From: Jimgerdemannia flammicorona
Lineage: Eukaryota; Mucoromycota; Endogonomycetes; Endogonales; Endogonaceae
Direction of reading: 5' to 3'
Assembly: GCA_003990745.1 (NCBI GenBank)
Contig: RBNI01002821.1
Span: 1 to 17,411, forward strand
Length of the DNA: 17,411 bases
Under the pieces are notes generated by a model. The model did no database searches. It saw only the letters and a list, made by a program, of their open reading frames with translations, and was not told the DNA's origin. Positions 5,905-15,164 of this stretch are shown here, piece after piece. Made by a program: the position numbers and the translations under genes. How positions within the stretch are numbered: the first letter of the stretch is position 1; the number at the start of each line of letters is the position of its first letter.

Positions 5905-6046
5905 TGTAATAGTTCTAGTTTCTTTAAGAAGAAGTAACTAAGTTTTGGTAATTCTAATAGATCTAAAGTAGCTTAAAGAGTTACTTATAGGTTCAAGTAT
6001 TCTTAAAGGAATTCTGAGAGAAAATATTCTGGCTTTATTTAAGTAG
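5905..6046 (-). repeat. Element A-family LTR, left half
   Basis: It begins TGTAATAGTTCTAG and matches 2291 onward through gctttatt(c/t)aa. It stops at 6046, exactly where element B starts, and the LTR resumes at 15003. The two halves together give about 300 bp, the same as the LTR at 2291-2580. Confidence 0.78.
6043..6046. repeat. Target-site duplication of element B, left copy
   Basis: GTAG immediately before the LTR TG at 6047; the same four bases follow the right LTR at 15003-15006. Removing the element and one copy restores the continuity of the interrupted LTR (compare 2425-2445). Because an A precedes GTAG on both sides, a 5-bp reading (AGTAG) is possible if the terminal A of the LTR is counted as target. 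Confidence 0.75.
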
Positions 6047-6386
6047 TGTCATGTAGTGGTCACGGAGTCCTTTAAATACACCAGATTCTCTTCAAGGTGT
6101 ATCTCTTAGACTAACTCAAGTTTGTTATAAGCAAGTTCTTATTGGAGTATCTTCCCAAGGTCTTATAGTCCTCAAAATTCTTATCTTTAACTATCTTGTT
6201 ATCTTTAGATTGCTTGCAAGGAAGTGTGTGTAAGTGAAACCAGAACTAACTTTATTTCAGAGGAAATAAGAGAGGTATTTATACAAAATATAATTCAATA
6301 GTTGCTAATATATGAAGCTAAATATAAATTCCAATAACTAAAACTACTAAGTTCCAGGATCAGTACTGATGATTGTACAGGTTCAG

Positions 6387-6515
6387 GATGCTGGTATTAT
6401 TTAGTATCATATCAAAATACCAGTACTGGAATAATTTTGTGTCACCTCAGAATACTAGTGCTGGCATTATCCAGTATTACATGAGAATACTGGTACTGGC
6501 ATTATCCAGTATAAC
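6387..6515. repeat. Tandem repeats of about 35 bp in the 3' LTR
   Basis: Four diverged units built on a pattern like aatact(g/a)gt(a/g)ctgg(c/a)attat(c)cagtat, starting near 6387, 6416, 6450 and 6485. They lie in the downstream part of the LTR in element sense, after the LTR reading frame. Confidence 0.65.
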
Positions 6516-6530
6516 AAAGAACTTAGAGCA
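6516..6530. repeat. 15-bp target duplication of the poly(A) insertion, left copy
   Basis: AAAGAACTTAGAGCA, identical to 6623-6637. The exact 3' boundary is ambiguous by the A bases shared with the poly(A) tail. Confidence 0.85.
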
Positions 6531-6622
6531 GATAGGGGGTGGGATCATTGTATTTATATGGGATAGATGGGAATTAATAAAGGAATGGAGTCCGAGTGAC
6601 TATAAAAAAAAAAAAAAAAAAA
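6531..6622 (+). mobile_element. Short poly(A)-tailed retroposon insertion
   Basis: It is present in the left LTR only. A body of about 73 bp (6531-6603) carries TTAATAAA (6574-6581) and GAGTCC (6588-6593) and is followed by a pure A run (6604-6625). It is flanked by AAAGAACTTAGAGCA at 6516-6530 and 6623-6637; the other LTR has this 15-mer once (about 13894-13908). These are the marks of LINE-driven insertion: a 5'-truncated LINE, a SINE or a processed transcript. The body also contains a CpG, consistent with youth. No coding content. Confidence 0.88.
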
Positions 6623-6637
6623 AAAGAACTTAGAGCA
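6623..6637. repeat. 15-bp target duplication of the poly(A) insertion, right copy
   Basis: AAAGAACTTAGAGCA following the A run. The LTR sequence then resumes and matches 13909 onward. Confidence 0.85.
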
Positions 6638-7487
6638 AAAAGTTCAGGACTATGGGGGCTTCATCATCATCATCATTATCACTGAAGGAGATGAGATCCG
6701 CAAATTCATCATGCAGGTCATATGTTTCGTATACTTCGCATGCTTCGGATATGTTGCATGTCTTGCATATGTCGAAGTCACATAGAATGACATCATCGCC
6801 AATGACATCATCATGTTCAGCAGTGGGGAAATTGGGAATAAGATCTGGAGCTCTCCAGTCTATGAGGTTCTCTTCCACAAAATAAAGAACAAATGTGGGA
6901 TCTTAGGGAGGTCTAACCTGGATGCTTGGGCCTTGGAATACTGAGATCAATCCTTGCAGGAATTGATCTGGGTTGTCCTGGAGGATAGGATGCCAGAAGT
7001 CTTCTACTTATTCACTATTGAGGGTGATAGTGGACTGGGCTTCTGTAGCCACTCTGGCTTCTAGCACATTGATACAGTGGAATGACAGGTCTCTGAAGTC
7101 TGAGACTCTAACATACTCCAAGTTGGGGATCGACTATGGTGCATGTCTGAAGATCTGATGGATCTTCTTAGCTGTCCTCATTTTGCATATATCCATGAGA
7201 GTGGCATCTTGTAGCTCTTGAGTGCTGGCCTGTGGGAACTCCCAGCAGAGGAGATTTCCTATTTTGTACTCCTGCCACATCTGGAGGCATTCAGTAGCAA
7301 TAGTGATCCTTGTTTCCATTTCATGGCAGTAGAGAATAAAGTGATAAGGGTCTGCAGTACCTAGGTTAACACTAGGAGTCCTTCTTGAGCAGGTCCCCAT
7401 GGCTCTTCTGATGTCTTGGAACATCTTTTTCTTGACTGAGATGCCTTGGTGATTCCTTGACCTTGAGGTTTGGTGGGCAGCAGGCAT
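6630..7487 (-). pseudogene. LTR-internal ORF of element B, 3' LTR copy (285 codons)
   Basis: I do not recognise this protein. From ATG 7487 (GAAATG context) the minus strand runs 285 codons to TAA, with in-frame stops at codons 118 (7136-7134, TAG where the other LTR has TGG), 160 (7010-7008, TAA against GAA) and 195 (6905-6903, TAA against CAA). Visible features: a basic, Arg/Lys-rich N terminus (MPAAHQTSRSRNHQG); a middle part with DPYHFILYCHEMETRITIA and EDFWHPILQDNPDQFLQG; and a Cys/Asp-rich C-terminal part with a patchy acidic tail (SFSDNDDDDEAP) ending in NFLL. No signal peptide, membrane segment or enzyme motif is obvious. It is in element sense, lies wholly inside the LTR and has the same length in both copies. 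Confidence 0.72.
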
Positions 7488-7729
7488 TTCATTTGTGGTA
7501 AGTCTTTAAACTATTTTGGGATTGGTGGTTCTTGTTGGTTGCTGCTACTGCAGTTCCTTGATCCTTCTTTTATATTCTTCAGAATGCTTGTACTGTGGTC
7601 ACAATGACTCATGGTTGGTTATCATTGCTCATTTCATATGCCATATGATCTTCTTGTGCTCCGATCTAGTGACTTGCAAGGAAAGGCTGTCTCCTGTACT
7701 GATGTCATCATTCTGGGGTCACCATTACA

Positions 7730-7741
7730 TCTTCCTCCTGA
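7730..7741 (-). other. Polypurine tract of element B
   Basis: Minus-strand CAGGAGGAAGA(TG) directly abuts the 3' LTR start TGTAATGG. Such a tract primes plus-strand DNA synthesis in LTR retrotransposons. Confidence 0.75.
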
Positions 7742-8084
7742 ATAAGGATCTCCTTGAGCATCCTTATTCATTGGTCCAGTCCTGAAAAATTTGCTGATCC
7801 CATAACCTCTGGCAAAGGGTCAAAAAGTGGTGTTTATGGGCTGGCATCTTCTCTTTATATTTTGGTGTGATGATGAAGAGTCACTTTCTTCATATAGAGC
7901 AAGGACCTGATTCTGATCTTGACCAATCAGTTGATAGTTCAAACTCCTCTGACTTTGAAAGTCTCACAGATGAGTAGTTGCCAGTGTTGTATCCCTTAGA
8001 GAATGGTCCAGACAGATAGCCTGCTGGTCACAGGACATGCTATTATAATTTGTGGACTAGAACCTTGCAGGTGGTCATTATATT
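7742..8084 (-). other. Element B 3' untranslated region
   Basis: Between the end of pol and the PPT. No frame longer than a few dozen codons and no recognised motif on either strand. Confidence 0.6.
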
Positions 8085-9290
8085 TTACTTCTCTTGTATA
8101 GGTTTGTGGTACTTCTTAAGTCTGTTCCTATGTACCATAGTAGGCAGTATGGTCTCTGAGATTTTTCTAAGCCAGAAGGTGGTTTCCTTGATATCTTGTA
8201 TGTAGAAGGGTCCTTCCCATTTGGGCTCCAGTTTTTGTGACCATGAGGCTTCTACTATATTTCGATATAGTAGAACCTTTTCTTCAATTCAGATGGGTTC
8301 TAGGGCCTTGTGATTCTTTTCCGTATTCTTCCTTGTCAGTACTTGTGACTTGGTGATATAATCTTCAGCCTTCTTCCTGATTTGGTATAGTCTCCGGATT
8401 TCTGCATCAATCTATCTCCAAGTTAGGTCTAGATTTGTGGCTAAGGTTCTATTAGAATCTTCTTCTCTGAAGAGCAGCACTCTTGGGGTAAAGTGTGTAC
8501 TCTGTGACTGTATATCTCGTAGGACAGAGAGGGCAGTTGGGAGATAGTTATCCCAATTCTCATATGTCTCTGAGATCTTCGCTAAGATGTTCTTGAGGGT
8601 CTTGTTGGTTCTCTCTGTCTGTCCATTTTCTTGAGGGTGGTACATGGTGGTCTTGATGTGCTGGATCTTGTATTTCTGATACATTATCTTATGGAATCCA
8701 TTGACAAATTCTGTGCCATGGTCTGTTGTGATTTGCTTCAGTGTCTTGTAGTGGCAGATGATTTCTCAGTACAGGAAGTTGGCTATAGAGAGGGCATTGG
8801 CTTCTTGTAATACTCCTGCCTCTATCCATTTAGTGAAGAGGTCTACAATAACTATAATATAACAGTTTCCTGATAGTGTTACTGGTAGTGGTCCAATGAT
8901 ATCCATTGCAATGTGGTGGAAGGGGATAGGTTCAATTCTTGATGACCTAGGTGTCTGGTCTTGTTGATCTTGTTTCTGTTTTTGGCACTTGTTACACCCT
9001 TTGACAAATTGGCACAGGTCTTCTTCTATCTTGGGCCACCACATAGTTCTTCTTGCCTTGTCATATATATTGGTTCCTTCTAAGTATCCTTGCTCATATA
9101 CTTCCTTCATTACTTGATACTTCTTATGTTCAGGTATTACTAGCTTTTCTTCTTTTCTGAGTATAGTATTGTCTAATTCAAACTGTTTCCAAGTCCAGTT
9201 GATGATGGTGGTTGTCCAGGATTCAAGATGGTTGGGCATCTTCCACTACCCAAGGTAGCTGATTAATCCATAGTATAGCTCCTTATTCAT
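8085..9290 (-). pseudogene. pol: Element B integrase with GPY/F module
   Basis: Minus strand. The N-terminal zinc-binding region reads KEVYEQGYLEGTN (about 9111-9073), where the two expected His residues are Tyr (TAT, TAC), then CNKC (about 9000-8985). The catalytic core follows: AMDIIGPLP with the first Asp at 8903-8901, TDHGTEF with the second Asp at 8723-8721, and NGQTERTN with Glu at 8615-8613, which gives D,D35E spacing. Stops fall near 8766 and 8410. A GPY/F-type module follows (KWEGPF, then VHRNRLKKYHKP, about 8225-8105), ending at TAA 8087-8085. No chromodomain is visible after it. The enzyme inserts element cDNA in the nucleus. Loss of both His ligands by C-to-T changes would abolish the zinc finger. 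Confidence 0.9.
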
Positions 9291-10700
9291 GTTGAATAGT
9301 CTTGATGGGGGTGTTTCGGGGTATTCTTGAGAGTACATTGGCATTGGTGTTGGTCTTTCCTGAGCAGTGCTTAACAGTACAGTCATACTCTTGCAGTCTG
9401 TAGATCCATCTGGCATATATTCCTTTAGGGTTCAGAGTGTGGAATAGCCAGACAAGGGTGGAATGGTCTGTTTAAATGGTGAAGTATTTCCCAGCTAGGT
9501 AGTAGTGGAACTTGTCTACTGCCCAAACTACTGCTAAGCATTCAAGCTTACATGACTCATAGTTCTGTTCTGCTCCATGGGTATCTCAGCTTGCATAGGA
9601 GATGACATATTCATGTCTATCTTTCTTCTGAGCTAGGACTGCTCCAAGTCCTATAGTGCTCACATCTGTCTGCAGGATGAATTCTAGATTCCAGTCTGGT
9701 CTTCTGAGGATAGGTGCTTGGGTCAATCTGGTCTTGAGTTCATTGAAGATTTCTTGGCACTCCTTGGTCCATTCGAATTTGGTTTCCTTCTTCAGTAGCT
9801 CATAGATAGGTGCTGCAATGTTGGAATATCCTTTGATGAATCTTCTGTAGTAGCTGGCCAGTCCAAGGAAGGCATGGACTTCTGTGGTTGTTCTGGGTCT
9901 CAGATAGGCTGCAACAGCCTCAATCTTCATAGGGTCTGTGTGGATTCCAGTCTGGTTGATGAGGTGTCCTAGGTAGGTGATTTCTTGAGCTGCAAACTTA
10001 CATTTCTTGGGCTTGATGTAGAGGCCATACTCCTTGAGTTTCTTGAGGGCTAGCTGTATGTGATTGATATGTTCCCATGCTGTATTGCTGAAGATGATCA
10101 CATCATCAATATAGACAAAGAGCTATTTTTCAATCTCGTTGCTGAAGACTCTATTCATTATTCGCTGGAAACTTGCTGGGGTATTGCACATTCCAAATGG
10201 CATTCGCAGGTAGATATAGATGGCATCAGGTATAATAAAGGCTGATTTCTCACTGGCATCTTGAGTGAGACCGATCTGATGGAAGTCTGAGAACAGATCC
10301 AAGGTGGTGTAGTATTTGGCTTTGCTTCCAAGAGTAGTAAGGATTTCTTGAATATTTGGCAAGGGCTGCCTATCCTTCTTGGTGATGGCATTGAGCTTCC
10401 TGTAGTCAATGCAGAGTCTTGGTGCAAACTCTCCAGGCTTGCTTCCTTTCTTTGGAGCAAGGATAATGAGTGAAGTCCAGGGGCTGATAGCTTGCTTGAT
10501 GATTCTGGCTTCTTCCATTTCCTTGAGTTCTGCTTGCAGCCATTCTCTGTAGACAGGTGGTATGGGTCTGGCTTTCTGGTAGATGGGCTTGGTATCACCA
10601 GTGTCAACTTTGTGGTAGTACTTGGGTTCTTGATTGTGGATATCCCTGAAGTCTGTAGCAAGTACTTCTTCATTCTGGTACAGGATCTTGAGAAGTTGTC
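9291..10700 (-). pseudogene. pol: Element B reverse transcriptase-RNase H
   Basis: Minus strand, in the -1 frame relative to the dUTPase. RT blocks in order: ARPIPPVYREWLQAELKEME, SPWTSLIILAPKKGS, PRLCIDYRKLNAIT, TTLDLFSDFHQIGL, LRMPFGMCNTPASFQRIMN, then FVYIDDVIIF with YIDD at 10113-10102, KKCKFAAQEITYLGHLI and FLGLASYYRRFI. RNase H follows with LQTDVSTIGLGAVLAQ (about 9660-9615), TDHSTLVWL and a terminal ANVLSR where ADALSR is usual. Stops occur just before YIDD (10122-10120) and after SYAS (near 9586). RT copies element RNA in the particle, and RNase H removes the template. The register returns to that of Gag-dUTPase before the integrase. Confidence 0.93.
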
Positions 10701-10779
10701 CTCCAGGGGAAAGATTTCTCCAATAGTATATGTGTGCTTGTTCTGGTCCTTGTCTTTCTTGTGCTCAAGTTTGGTAATC

Positions 10780-11215
10780 TTAGTTGCAGCATAGGCTCCT
10801 CTTCCAGTAGATCCAAAGCCTTGTTCTCCTCTCTTAGTCTTGATGAGTTTAATGGCTTCTATAATCTTGGGCTTCTTGATTTCATGGATCAGCATCTGGC
10901 CAATTCTGTCATGCTTCTTGACTTCGAAGGGGGTGGTGTAGTTGTGATTTCTGACTATGAGGAAGATCTTGCCAGTGTAATCAGGGTCAATTACTCCTCC
11001 TTCAACTGAGATTTCACTTTTGGCCAGACTGCTCCTAGTCTTGATAATTCCAGCATGGTCCTCTGGCAGCTTGACTCCAATTCCAGTGCCAAGTAGGGTG
11101 GTGGTCTGTGGTTTGAGGATAGCATCTTGAATGCTGGCAAGGTCCATTCCTATGGCTCCTTCAGTCTTATATTCTGGGATCTTGGCTTCAGGGTGAAACT
11201 TCTTGATCTTGAGAG
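10780..11215 (-). CDS. Element B dUTPase domain (no internal stop)
   Basis: Minus strand, in the same frame as Gag and protease. All five trimeric-dUTPase motifs are visible: motif 1 EGAIGMDLAS (about 11170-11141), motif 2 TRSSLAKS (about 11040-11015), motif 3 GGVIDPDYTGKI with the catalytic Asp (about 11003-10968), motif 4 KHDRIGQML and motif 5 GFGSTGR (10820-10800). Length, about 135 residues, is normal for a trimeric dUTPase. The enzyme converts dUTP to dUMP and pyrophosphate and probably keeps uracil out of element cDNA. It is part of the polyprotein, not a separate gene; the frame stays open from 11147 to 10158, although after about 10690 the true continuation is in another frame. It lacks stops and keeps its motif residues, unlike the element A copy. 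Confidence 0.9.
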
Positions 11216-11549
11216 TGATGTCTGATTCTTGTTCCTCCTCATCGTCACTATCAGCTTGAAGTTATGGGGGCTGGTCATCTTCTTCGGCTTTCCTTTTTGC
11301 TTTAGTGGCTTCTTGCTCATATTTCTGTTAGCAGATTTTCCTGACTTCACTGATACAGGACCAGTAGTCATTCAGGTGTTCAGAGCAGTACATCCTAGTG
11401 CTATGGGGGCATCTTCCTTGAGAGGCATACCTATCGATGATCTTGTTGTACCACTGCTCATTTGTGAGCTTGGGTGCCTTGTTCTTATTCTTATTCACCA
11501 AGTACATAAAGACCTCTGTGTCTTCTTCATCTCCTTCCTCCATGTCTAG

Positions 11550-11985
11550 TAGGACTCCTTTGTGGACATTGATAGAGACTCATACCTTTCTCCCTCTGTA
11601 GTTGATCTGTATCTTCTGGGCATTGAGGTCAATGATAGCCTTGGCCTTGTGAAGCCATTGGTTGCTAATGAGGATGTCATAGTTGGTGGCGCTTGTAACA
11701 ATTACATCTACTGGGATAGTAGCTCCTCCTATCTTAATGGGGACTTCTCGGATTTTGCCAAGGGGGGTAGCTCATGTACCATCTACTGTAACATAGACTA
11801 TCTTGATAAACTCTTCAACATCCCAACCTAGGCAGTCAATTGCCTTCTTGCTCATAAGGTATCCTCCAGCACCAGTATCAATGATGGCATCAAAGATACA
11901 GTCTTTGATCTAGCAGGAGGTATAGGCTGATGTCTTGCACTGGTCTTTGGATTCTTCACCTGAGTTCTCAGATTCTTCCTGTATA
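11550..11985 (-). pseudogene. Element B aspartic protease
   Basis: Minus strand: FDAIIDTGAGGYLMS with the catalytic Asp at 11879-11877, then YVTVDGT, a stop near 11770, PLGKIREVPIKIGGATIP, IVTSATNYDILISNQWL and AKAIIDLNAQKIQINYRG (about 11600). This is the standard Ty3/Gypsy retropepsin pattern of about 110 residues. Additional stops lie upstream (about 11910) and downstream (in the GRKV region). It cleaves the Gag-Pol polyprotein. It lies between the zinc knuckle and the dUTPase, with a linker of about 120 residues (Lys/Glu-rich, with acidic runs) before the dUTPase. Element A has the reverse arrangement. Confidence 0.9.
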
Positions 11986-13372
11986 TTGTGAGCTTCTACA
12001 ATCTTGTACTCTTGATTTTTGGCAGTAGTTGTAAGTCCTACTCTCAACTACTGTCTAAAGGCAGGGACTTCAGCTAGTTGTCCAAAAGTAGCATTGACCT
12101 TCTGTTCCTTGAGATTCTTGTAGATATCATACTGGTGGATCTTGGTCTTGTACAGCTTCTGTTCCTTCTTGCTTTTGCTTTCTCCTGAGACTGGAGTAGT
12201 GCCTTCAATAATTTGATAGGCAGCTTCATCTAACTCCATGCCTTGATCAATCTCCTTGGGTTGGGTCTTGCTTTGAATAGTGACAGCTGGGGTCTTCTTT
12301 GGTCTTCCAACTGGCTTGCTATTGCTCTTCTTATCATAGGGCTTGGACTGAGTTCTGGTACCTTCAGTAGCAGGGTAGAATTCAAGCTCCTCATAGTATT
12401 CTTCATCATCAGTATCACCAATCTCCTCAATGACTACTATATTGGTTTGTTCTCTAGTTCTACTAGCATTGCTTGGTTGGGCTTTGCATCTTGTTTCGGT
12501 CATGCAATTCTTTGCATAGTGGCCTTCTTCTCCACATCTGAAGCATATGATATTGCATTCTTCTGTAGCAGCTACAAATCTCTGTACTGGTCTTCTGTTG
12601 GCGCTTCAGACTTCTTTAACAATATCACCAAGGTGTGCAGTCATCTCGGCAAACTGCTTGACAAGTTCTTCCACTAGGTCAGCTTTGGCTGTCTTGGGAG
12701 TAGGTGGGGTTGGTTGTCTGTTTACAACTGTGGTGGGTATGATACTAGTTGGCTTTAATGGCTCCATCTTGATGCCAGTTATTTTCTCCATTGAGTGTTC
12801 AGCAGGGTGTCTGGCAGTCTAATATCTCTGTGCAAAGACCACTTTCTGATCAAGAGTCAGTGCAGCTGGAGTAGACTGGATTGCTAGGGCAATTTCAGAG
12901 TGAACTCCTTTGAGGAAGGTTGAATCCACTATTTGTTCCTTAAGACAGTCATCATAGCCAGCCAAGACAATCTGGTGGCAAATTCAGGTATAGAATGAGT
13001 TGGGATCTTCACTAAGTCTCTGGCAGATAGTATTGAGTTGATCCTTGAGAGCTTGCTTGATCTCTTTGGTATAATATGTTGTTCTGAGAAAGACCTTCAT
13101 GTTGGCAAGTTTGGTTGTACTAGCATCAGCAATGGTGGCTGTATTGAACTTATCTCTGGTAGGTCCTCTGAGGCTAACTGGTAGAAGGGCCAATTGAGCA
13201 TCCACACCAAGGGCTCATATGGCAGCAAATTGTTCAAAGTCTTCAATGAAGGTCAGGATTGACTCTTCAGTAGTATATCCATAGAATGTAGGGGGACACA
13301 TTTCCATCTTATCTTGAATTCTTGCAGGGGTAACTCTTGTAGTCAGGGTAGTTGTTGTGGGAGTTGTTCATT
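11986..13372 (-). pseudogene. gag: Element B Gag with CCHC zinc knuckle
   Basis: Minus strand. Capsid-like sequence includes PPTFYGYTTEESILTFIEDF, then ALLPVSLRGPTRDKF and ALKDQLNTICQRLSEDPNSF (about 13320-12985), with stops near 13217 and 12984. A central segment (12791-12606) precedes an intact knuckle CFRCGEEGHYAKNC at 12545-12504. A long charged linker follows, with acidic EEIGDTDDEEYYEELEFY and basic KKSNSKPVGRPKK parts (12440-12290), up to the protease. The start codon is unclear: a TGA sits where the frame would begin (about 13367), and the first in-frame Met is DKMEMCPP near 13312. Gag, protease and dUTPase share one register with no frameshift. Confidence 0.85.
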
Positions 13373-13406
13373 TTTCAGCTTGAAAGTGAGGGATTCATCT
13401 TGAATC

Positions 13407-13424
13407 ACCAGCCAATGGGCACCA
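13407..13424 (-). other. Primer-binding site of element B
   Basis: On the minus strand TGGTGCCCATTGGCTGGT starts three bases inside the 5' LTR. A complementary tRNA would end in ...GGGCACCA. This is not the initiator-Met type common in fungal elements, and I cannot name the tRNA. Confidence 0.6.
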
Positions 13425-13767
13425 AGTTGTTATGTAGTAGTCACTGAGTCCTTCAAATATGCCAGATTCTCTTCAAGGTGTATCTCTTAGACTAACTCAA
13501 GTTTGTTATAAGCAAGTTCTTATTGGAGTGCCTTCCCAAGGTCTTATAGTCCTCAAACTTCTTATCTTTAACTGTCTTGTTATCTTTAGATTGCTTGCAA
13601 GGAAGTGTGTATAAGTGAAACCAGAACTGACTTTATTTTAGAGGAAATAAGAGGGGTATTTATACAAAATATAATTCAATAGTTGCTTAGATATGAAGCT
13701 AAATATAAATTCCAATAACTAAAACTACTAAGTTCCAGGGTCAGTACTGATAGTTGTACAGGTTCAG

Positions 13768-13896
13768 GATGCTGGTATTATTCAGTATCACATCAAAATG
13801 CTGGTGCTGGAACAATTTCATGTCACCTCAGAATACCAGTGCTGGCATTATCCAGTGTTACATGAGAATACTGGTACTGGCATTATCCAGTGTAAC
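13768..13896. repeat. Tandem repeats of about 35 bp in the 5' LTR
   Basis: The same four-unit array as at 6387-6515 (gatgctggtattattcag, then three further units with gctggcattatccagt-type cores). Its presence in both LTRs shows that it predates integration. Confidence 0.65.
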
Positions 13897-13903
13897 AAAG
13901 AAC

Positions 13904-14761
13904 TTAGAGCAGAAAGTACAGGACCATGGGGGCTTCATCATTATCATCATCATCACTGAAGGAGATGAGATCTGTAAATTTGTCATACAGGTCATACATT
14001 TCACATACTTTGTGTGCTTTGGGTATATCATGTATCTCACATATGTCAAAGTCACACAGAATGATGTCATCACTGATGACATCATCATGTTTGGCAGCAG
14101 GGAAATCGGGAACAAGATCTAGAGCTCTCCAGTCTATGAAGTTCTCTTCCACAAAATAAGGAACAAATGTGGGGTCTTGGGGAGGTCTAACCTGGATGCT
14201 TGGGCCTTAGAATACTGAGATCAATCCTTGCAGGAATTGATCTGGGTTGTCCTGGAGGATAGGATGCCAGAAGTCTTCTACTTCTTCACTGTTGAGAGTG
14301 ATAGTGGACTGGACTTCTGTAGCCACCCTGGCTTCTAGTGCATTGATATAGCAGAATGACAGGTCTCTGAAGTCTGAGACTCTAACATACTCCAAGTTGG
14401 GGATCAACCATGGTGCATGTCTGAAGATCTGATAGATCTTCTTAGCTGTCCTTGTTTCGCATATATCTATGGGAGTGGTATCTTGTAGCTCTTGAGTACT
14501 GGCCTGTGAGAACTCCCAGCAGAGGAGGTTTCTTATTTTGTACTCCTGCTATATCTGGAGGCATTCAATAGCAATGGTGATCCTTGTTTCCATTTCATGA
14601 TAGTAGAGAATAAAGTGATAAGGGTCTGTAGTACCCAGGTTGATACTAGGAGTCCTTCTTGAGCAGGTCCCCATGGCTCTTCTGATGTTTTAGAACATTC
14701 TTTCCTCAACTGAGATGCCTTGGTGATTCCTTGACCTTGAGGTTTAGTGGGCAGCAGGCAT
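13904..14761 (-). pseudogene. LTR-internal ORF of element B, 5' LTR copy (285 codons)
   Basis: The same frame as 7487-6630 and exactly the same length (858 bases including the stop), with no indel across it. In-frame stops are at codons 6 (14746-14744, TAA against CAA), 24 (14692-14690, TAA against CAA), 71 (14551-14549, TAG against TGG) and 185 (14209-14207, TAA against CAA). All four are C-to-T or G-to-A relative to the other LTR, and none coincides with a stop in it. Taking the sense codon at each site gives an uninterrupted ancestral frame. The C terminus again has an acidic run (SFSDDDDNDEAP) and ends in YFLL. Lying at the 5' end of the element, it precedes Gag; whether it was translated from the genomic RNA or a separate transcript cannot be seen. 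Confidence 0.72.
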
Positions 14762-15002
14762 TTCGTTGTGGTAAGTCTTTGAGCTATTTTGGGATTAGTG
14801 GTTCTTGTTGGTTGCTGCTACTGTGGTTCCTTGATCCTTCTTTTATATTCTTCAGGATGCTTGTACTGTGGTCACAATGACTCATGGTTGGTCATCATTG
14901 CTCATTTTGTATACTGTATGATCTTCTTGTGCTCTGATCTAGTGGCTTGCAAGGAAAGGCTGTCTCCTATGCTAATGTCATCATTCTGGGATTACCATTA
15001 CA

Positions 15003-15006
15003 GTAG
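15003..15006. repeat. Target-site duplication of element B, right copy
   Basis: GTAG matching 6043-6046, directly after the terminal CA of the right LTR (15001-15002). Confidence 0.75.
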
Positions 15007-15164
15007 AGAATAAGAATATTTATATAGAATCTGAAAGAAAGATTCAGAAGGATCTTGGAAAAGAAGAGAAATACTAAAAAATAGATTTTTGGTAAAGATG
15101 ACTAATAGAATTCTACAATATTCCAAAAGGTTCTATAACTAGCTAAGACAAGATACTTATTACA
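15003..15164 (-). repeat. Element A-family LTR, right half
   Basis: It resumes at gtagagaataag and matches 2430-2580 (aaagatgactaata, ccaaaaggttctataacta, gctaaga.aagatactt), ending TTATTACA at 15164, so the joined LTR has TG...CA ends. On the minus strand a purine run, AAAGAAAGG, lies two bases outside this edge. That looks like a polypurine tract and suggests a 3' LTR rather than a solo LTR. Confidence 0.76.

Follow-up and report, generated by a model that had tools for sequence, protein, structure and literature searches.

A probable accessory gene within the long terminal repeats of a dUTPase-bearing Ty3/gypsy-type lineage in Jimgerdemannia flammicorona

Introduction

Long terminal repeats (LTRs) are usually regarded as noncoding control regions and are masked in gene searches. 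In mouse mammary tumour virus (MMTV), a whole accessory gene, sag, lies in U3 and is duplicated with the LTR; its product is a type II membrane glycoprotein. The accessory genes for foamy virus Tas/Bel1 and lentiviral Nef are located near or overlapping the 3' LTR, mostly or partly outside it, and Tas possesses an acidic activation region. The present work concerns a frame of 858 nucleotides (nt) in both LTRs of a Ty3/gypsy-type element, which was found in a 17,411-nt stretch of the fungus Jimgerdemannia flammicorona (contig RBNI01002821.1, assembly GCA_003990745.1; hereafter the window).

Like sag, the LTR frame would be a whole accessory gene in U3 that is duplicated with the LTR. It differs from sag in its predicted product, which has neither a membrane segment nor a Pfam match above cut-off, as well as in its host and element group. 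With Tas/Bel1 and Nef it shares the position of an accessory gene at the LTR, and with Tas an acidic region; unlike these, the frame is situated wholly within the LTR, and it gives no Pfam match above cut-off. It is the arrangement that resembles the MMTV LTR gene, and not the protein.

Fungal Ty3/gypsy elements bearing a dUTPase have been described from Phanerochaete, Postia and Tuber (PMC2864245), and the window element is like them in having a Ty3-type pol and a dUTPase domain. In the accessible part of that paper, the figure key shows an additional open reading frame (ORF) of unknown function, and no gene within the LTR is mentioned. Retrosat2 of rice has long LTRs and carries ORF0, of unknown function, upstream of its gag-pol ORF (PMC3485330). 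It thus shares the long LTRs and the extra ORF with the window element; in the accessible text, ORF0 is not placed in the LTR (PMC3485330). As far as the available excerpts go, the matching terms in three other papers denote ordinary element ORFs or domains (PMC12037069, PMC4016481, PMC13195028). No report of a gene inside a fungal Ty3/gypsy LTR was recognised in the literature, which was judged mostly from abstracts, with the subscription literature outside the scope.

The LTR frame and its copies

The LTR frame is, with high probability, a genuine and long-maintained accessory gene in U3 of a dUTPase-bearing Ty3/gypsy-type lineage. Sequence comparison shows that it is repeated genome-wide, is present in both LTRs of elements, evolved under protein-level constraint close to that on pol and is common to two deeply diverged families. 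The window holds two copies:

13904..14761, minus strand: LTR gene, 5' LTR copy; 286 codons including the stop, with in-frame stops at codons 6, 24, 71 and 185
6630..7487, minus strand: LTR gene, 3' LTR copy; in-frame stops at codons 118, 160 and 195

A preliminary description of the window had claimed that both LTRs carry the same 858-nt frame with no indel and that none of the stops coincide. A base-for-base comparison agrees: the stops are located as listed, and each of the seven is matched by a sense codon in the opposite LTR. Six of these stops are indeed C:G/T:A differences, the exception being codon 160 (GAA/TAA). Overall, the two window frames differ at 87 of 858 sites, 85 of these differences being transitions. 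The start codon of the frame lies 241-242 nt inside the LTR.

Copies were searched for in the source assembly (134.8 Mb, 7754 contigs). A DNA-similarity search scored 40 of 2758 first-look candidates, and all 40 match at least 857 of the 858 bases of the query, at 87-100% identity. Contigs C2821, C797, C454 and C1839 each bear a same-strand pair with starts 7.19-7.28 kb apart, as expected of LTR pairs. The main set for the study of constraint consists of 30 family A copies (L001-L030), which were picked by DNA similarity alone. A search by protein similarity supplied the copies of family B and subfamily C, along with the family A copies L031-L060. The internal region of the element adjoins 37 of 50 family A copies, 19 as 3' LTR and 18 as 5' LTR; the remaining 13 have no placement relative to it.

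Five of the 30 DNA-selected copies (L010, L011, L024, L025 and L029) have a complete frame, which starts with ATG, ends with a stop codon and is uninterrupted in between. Two further open copies begin with ATA, and another, L027, has a match one base short of the end; in 22 of the 30, the frame is interrupted by one or more in-register stops. The other five reading frames of these 30 copies contain 5-28 stops per copy, the lowest numbers being those of frameshifted copies. By protein similarity, 142 of 4424 candidates were scored, and 55 of them have no stop in the match, as counted by eye in a search that favours open frames.

Taken over the 30 copies, 18 codons of the frame are a stop in one copy or more, and 16 of these codons are commonly CAA, CAG or TGG. 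Seven codons are stops in at least three copies. When the stop codons are excluded from tree building, the 32 stop occurrences at these seven codons need 30 Fitch changes; moreover, both TAG and TGA are seen among the copies at codons 118 and 211. Since nearly one change is needed per stop occurrence, and since TAG and TGA are mixed, the shared stops are read as recurrent mutations and not as an inherited interruption. The copies vary mostly by C/T and G/A changes, and CpG stands at 0.00-0.57 of expectation in the eight frame copies tested. The recurrent stops, together with the CpG depletion, fit recurrent deamination of silenced repeats. It was also observed that 52 dinucleotide positions in copies L001-L030 show at least three of CG, TG, CA and TA, suggesting methylation-linked decay besides CpA changes in family A.

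Coding constraint and its depth

Indels were counted against one reference copy. Within the frame of the 30 copies, a length divisible by three is found for 13 of 20 distinct events and for 75 of 82 copy-level events, as against 1 of 9 and 2 of 40, respectively, in the adjacent 139-nt noncoding part of the LTR after the frame. When all 50 copies are taken, distinct indels are multiples of three in 24 of 32 cases in the frame and in 1 of 11 after it; of the 24 in-frame events, 8 fall in a GAT (Asp) run and 16 elsewhere. The preliminary description had named shared stops or indels in other copies as signs against the frame. Literally, both occur, as seven codons have shared stops and some copies have frameshifting indels (7 of 82 events). 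The stops, however, are not inherited, with 30 changes for 32 occurrences, and the large majority of the indels (75 of 82) leave the frame in register.

Codon models gave an omega (dN/dS) of 0.583 for the 30 copies in frame and of 1.317 and 1.445 in the shifted frames; two of the antisense frames stand at 1.306 and 1.487. In the same 13 copies, omega is 0.599 for the LTR frame and 0.615 for a pol segment. In the same 10 copies, it is 0.569 for the LTR frame and 0.798 for a gag segment. With an in-frame omega so close to that of pol, the LTR frame behaves much like the element's own enzyme gene. As in U3 accessory genes, a complete frame under coding constraint is thus found inside both LTRs.

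The frame also extends to other families of the genome. Subfamily C (L061-L065) has a mean amino acid identity of 81% to five A copies over 212 codons. In a gap-free comparison over the first 212 codons, six copies of family B show 59-63% nt identity to A, and 41-49% amino acid identity to L024. When one A copy is compared with the six B copies, codons 1-200 contain no gap, and each block of 100 nt there has an nt identity of 0.57-0.66; the value is 0.54 for the block running past codon 212 and 0.40-0.52 for the rest of the LTR. The clean A-B alignment of the LTR is thereby restricted to codons 1-212. In alignment A3, the aligner misplaced several C-terminal fragments of family B, and these were left out of A4.

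For 16 sequences of A, C and B taken together, omega is 0.478 in frame, against 1.296 and 1.549 in the shifted frames. A dN/dS below 1 between lineages, which the preliminary description had put forward as a check, is seen among the families of this genome. A-B transversions per site are 0.173, 0.089 and 0.170 at codon positions 1, 2 and 3, and 0.280 at fourfold sites. The fixed purine/pyrimidine differences between A and B number 33, 16 and 33 at the three positions and are unequal (p 0.029).

A decayed family B element on contig C2742 (3504-14852) has the frame in both LTRs, with pieces of gag, dUTPase, reverse transcriptase (RT), RNase H and integrase (IN) between them. Its LTRs are 81.6% identical over 1560 alignment columns, one end being near the edge of the stretch examined. 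Compared with family A, its RT is 39% identical, its dUTPase 41% over 80 amino acids, and its two frame copies 33% and 41%. As the frame is present in both LTRs of such a diverged element, the gene has most likely been in the LTR since before the A/B split. The LTR copies of this element are about 9.8 kb apart, as against 7.3 kb in family A. The earlier proposal that the ancestral LTR held one open coding frame is thus supported by the stop-free natural copies, the in-frame indels, dN/dS, retention in family B and the database relatives described below.

Putative transcription signals

The following signals surround the gene in the window:

14840..14847, minus strand: TATAAAAG, candidate own promoter, upstream of the LTR gene in the 5' LTR
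7567..7574, minus strand: TATAAAAG upstream of the LTR gene in the 3' LTR
13657..13664 (5' LTR) and 6276-6283 (3' LTR), minus strand: TATAAATA, candidate genomic-RNA promoter, downstream of the gene at the U3 end
13631..13637 (5' LTR) and 6250-6256 (3' LTR), minus strand: AATAAAG poly(A)-like signal

In 50 of 50 family A copies, a TATA-like match is situated 85-88 nt upstream of the gene; in family B, at least 6 of 10 copies have one 63-69 nt upstream. TATAAATA and AATAAA occur downstream of the gene in all copies long enough to examine (47 of 47 in A and 8 of 8 in B). These counts come from A+T-rich DNA and, within each family, from copies that are not independent of each other. Given a TATA-like match upstream and TATA-like and poly(A)-like signals downstream, the gene appears to be located in U3, between two promoter-like sites. 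It is proposed that transcription of the gene would be driven by its own TATA box, some 87 nt upstream, and that the transcript would end at the later poly(A)-like signal of the LTR. On this view, every LTR, even a solo one, could function as a small gene.

The predicted protein

The earlier description of a basic N terminus and an acidic tail agrees with the computed charges. The first 40 residues have a net charge of +5 in L024, +5 in L025 and +8 in P0002, these being the sequences tested with a whole N terminus. The last 70 residues carry -17 to -20 in L024, L025, P0001, P0002, P0003 and P0005; the tail is more weakly acidic in P0007 (-12) and in two decayed family B pieces (-13 and -7). 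Basic clusters near the N terminus read RRAMR...RRTPS in A and KRAMR...RRTPS in B copies. No membrane segment was found, the highest 19-residue hydropathy in nine sequences being 0.43-1.09, and the protein is predicted to be soluble. Two structure models, with mean pLDDT of 40.5 and 49.8, are mostly helix with a low-confidence tail.

Among 5.8 billion proteins searched, only eight relatives were obtained, which are encoded on short public contigs of 600-1625 bases, probably from metagenomes. Six of these were aligned and are 46-90% identical to L024. The product had been said to match no family, and this held in further searches: Pfam gave nothing above cut-off (best ATG5_HBR, E 0.02), and PDB sequences gave one chance-level match for one sequence (E 0.28), with nothing matched by the profile. 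In viral and prokaryote contig collections, there were pattern matches, of which none was confirmed as a relative, and phage records held no match. There is no similarity to the element's own gag/pol pieces (best E 0.2). The protein does not fall in the MMTV superantigen family, for it has no such Pfam match and no hydrophobic segment.

The element in the window

The minus strand of the window bears a decayed, interrupted, dUTPase-bearing element of Ty3/gypsy type, with these features:

13428..15002, minus strand: 5' LTR, 1575 bp, first bases TGTAATGG, last bases CATAACA
6047..7729, minus strand: 3' LTR, 1683 bp, of which about 108 bp are an insertion, last bases CATGACA
15003-15006 and 6043-6046, flanking the element: probable 4-bp target duplication CTAC
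13411..13424, minus strand: TGGTGCCCATTGGC, candidate primer-binding site by its position beside the 5' LTR
7730..7739, minus strand: AGGAGGAAGA, polypurine tract touching the 3' LTR
12501..12548, minus strand: gag zinc knuckle, PF00098
10803..11189, minus strand: dUTPase domain, PF00692, E 6.5e-28, upstream of RT
9589..10455, minus strand: RT and RNase H, PF00078 and PF17919, interrupted
8574..9137, minus strand: integrase, interrupted; zinc-binding PF17921 above cut-off, core PF00665/PF13683 below cut-off

In element sense, RT/RNase H comes before integrase, which is the order of Ty3/gypsy elements (Metaviridae). Paired LTRs, a primer-binding site, a polypurine tract and a target duplication, as in Metaviridae, are all seen, the primer-binding site being a candidate and the duplication 4 bp long. 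The dUTPase domain within the element is a feature shared with the dUTPase-bearing fungal Metaviridae.

The greater length of the 3' LTR is due to an insertion at the frame's stop codon. This insertion, of about 108 bp with a duplicated target of about 12-14 bp included, consists of a short repeat (6531-6602) and a poly(A) run to about 6625, and the stop codon lies within the duplicated target. In a search with the short repeat, 40 of 572 candidates were scored, and these are all 96-100% identical. The repeat looks young and may be a SINE or the 3' end of a short LINE. Elsewhere in the window, a tandem array of 14-bp units of GATTCGGATTGAGT type occupies 347-581. Short direct repeats on either side of the element (2331-2416 and 5946-6031; 2472-2579 and 15056-15163) suggest that its insertion site was within or close to another repetitive element.

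Discussion

Several observations weigh against taking the frame for a maintained gene. Trinucleotide slippage in the GAT (Asp) run can yield in-frame indels without selection. The third antisense frame has an omega of 0.679, though it contains 272 stops, or 4.3 per 100 codons, and several codon-model fits reached the kappa ceiling of 50. Over codons 1-212 of family A, synonymous and nonsynonymous variants number 31 and 45 among singletons, 20 and 26 among those in two copies, and 56 and 63 among those in at least three; the nonsynonymous to synonymous ratio in shared variants (63/56) is barely below that in singletons (45/31). So slight a contrast makes a weak test of selection, probably because transitions recur. 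Selection by protein similarity, as for the B, C and L031-L060 copies, favours conserved frames. The preliminary description had further held that substitutions without codon-position bias between lineages would tell against the frame. The positions are unequal between A and B, as given above; nevertheless, the A-B transversions show no significant excess at position 3 (p 0.11, in a moderate test). Those between A and C (0.018, 0.011 and 0.013 at the three positions, 0.009 at fourfold sites) are too few for a codon pattern, and the A-C in-frame signal consequently rests on transitions. Finally, as the structure models are poor, the reading of function leans on charge pattern and analogy only.

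How, then, might the frame have arisen otherwise? That it is an accidental low-stop stretch, kept merely through recent copies of a few source elements, is very improbable. The family A copies are closely related, and their transversion rates are low across most of the LTR (27 copies), as such an accident would have it. A chance open frame was nonetheless rejected on the stops of the shifted frames and their omega above 1, on the in-frame indels and on the gap-free alignment to family B, which is retained at roughly 60% nt identity while alignment of the LTR around it has become poor; database relatives with an aligned identity of 46-75% speak against it too. A gene of the host or of another mobile element, picked up by the element, is also an improbable source. 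The dissimilarity of the LTR protein to the element's gag/pol pieces would suit such a capture. However, the frame is present in families A, C and B, and pol is about as diverged as the frame, which makes a recent capture unlikely, an ancient one less so; besides, no host relative appeared among the 5.8 billion proteins, in a database possibly poor in fungi. Much the same low probability is given to the idea that a lengthened LTR swallowed an env-like or downstream internal gene, of which the frame is what remains. Genes of the nef and sag type overlap or lie in U3, and the position of the frame in U3, which in the 3' LTR places it after pol and the polypurine tract, is in keeping with this origin; the lack of a hydrophobic segment and a start codon 241-242 nt within the LTR, rather than upstream of it, are not.

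With the frame taken as an accessory gene of the element, its product may tentatively be proposed, from the charge pattern and by analogy, to be a nuclear trans-acting regulator of the element. The N-terminal basic clusters could serve in nuclear entry, or in DNA or RNA binding, and the acidic-hydrophobic tail could act as an activation domain on the downstream promoter. In another role, on the lines of Rev and Rem, the protein would work post-transcriptionally as an RNA-binding export or packaging factor, through its arginine-rich stretch, the acidic tail being incidental. The basic clusters near the N terminus in both families, with +5, +5 and +8 in the first 40 residues, are consistent with this, yet there is no motif match, and the acidic tail is kept in relatives; such a factor is considered unlikely. 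To a similar degree unlikely is a protein that would counter or tune silencing, as an anti-silencing factor or one of self-limiting copy control, its dose rising with every LTR. Silencing pressure is itself likely, given that the eight tested frames are CpG-depleted and that C/T and G/A changes dominate, and a location in the LTR scales with copy number; against this, neither Pfam nor PDB offers a domain or homologue in support of such a modulator.

Significance

A selected gene wholly within a Ty3/gypsy LTR would mean that such an arrangement extends beyond a single vertebrate virus and that solo LTRs can be genes. It is a fair possibility, though short of an even chance, that a retrotransposon clade here carries a self-promoted regulatory gene in its LTR, with each LTR, even a solo one, being a free-standing mobile minigene and with a protein family that has no known relatives. 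The genome may, in that case, hold hundreds to thousands of scattered copies able to act in trans on elements or host genes. The finding would thus add a protein family without known relatives, whose role in transposon control is directly testable.

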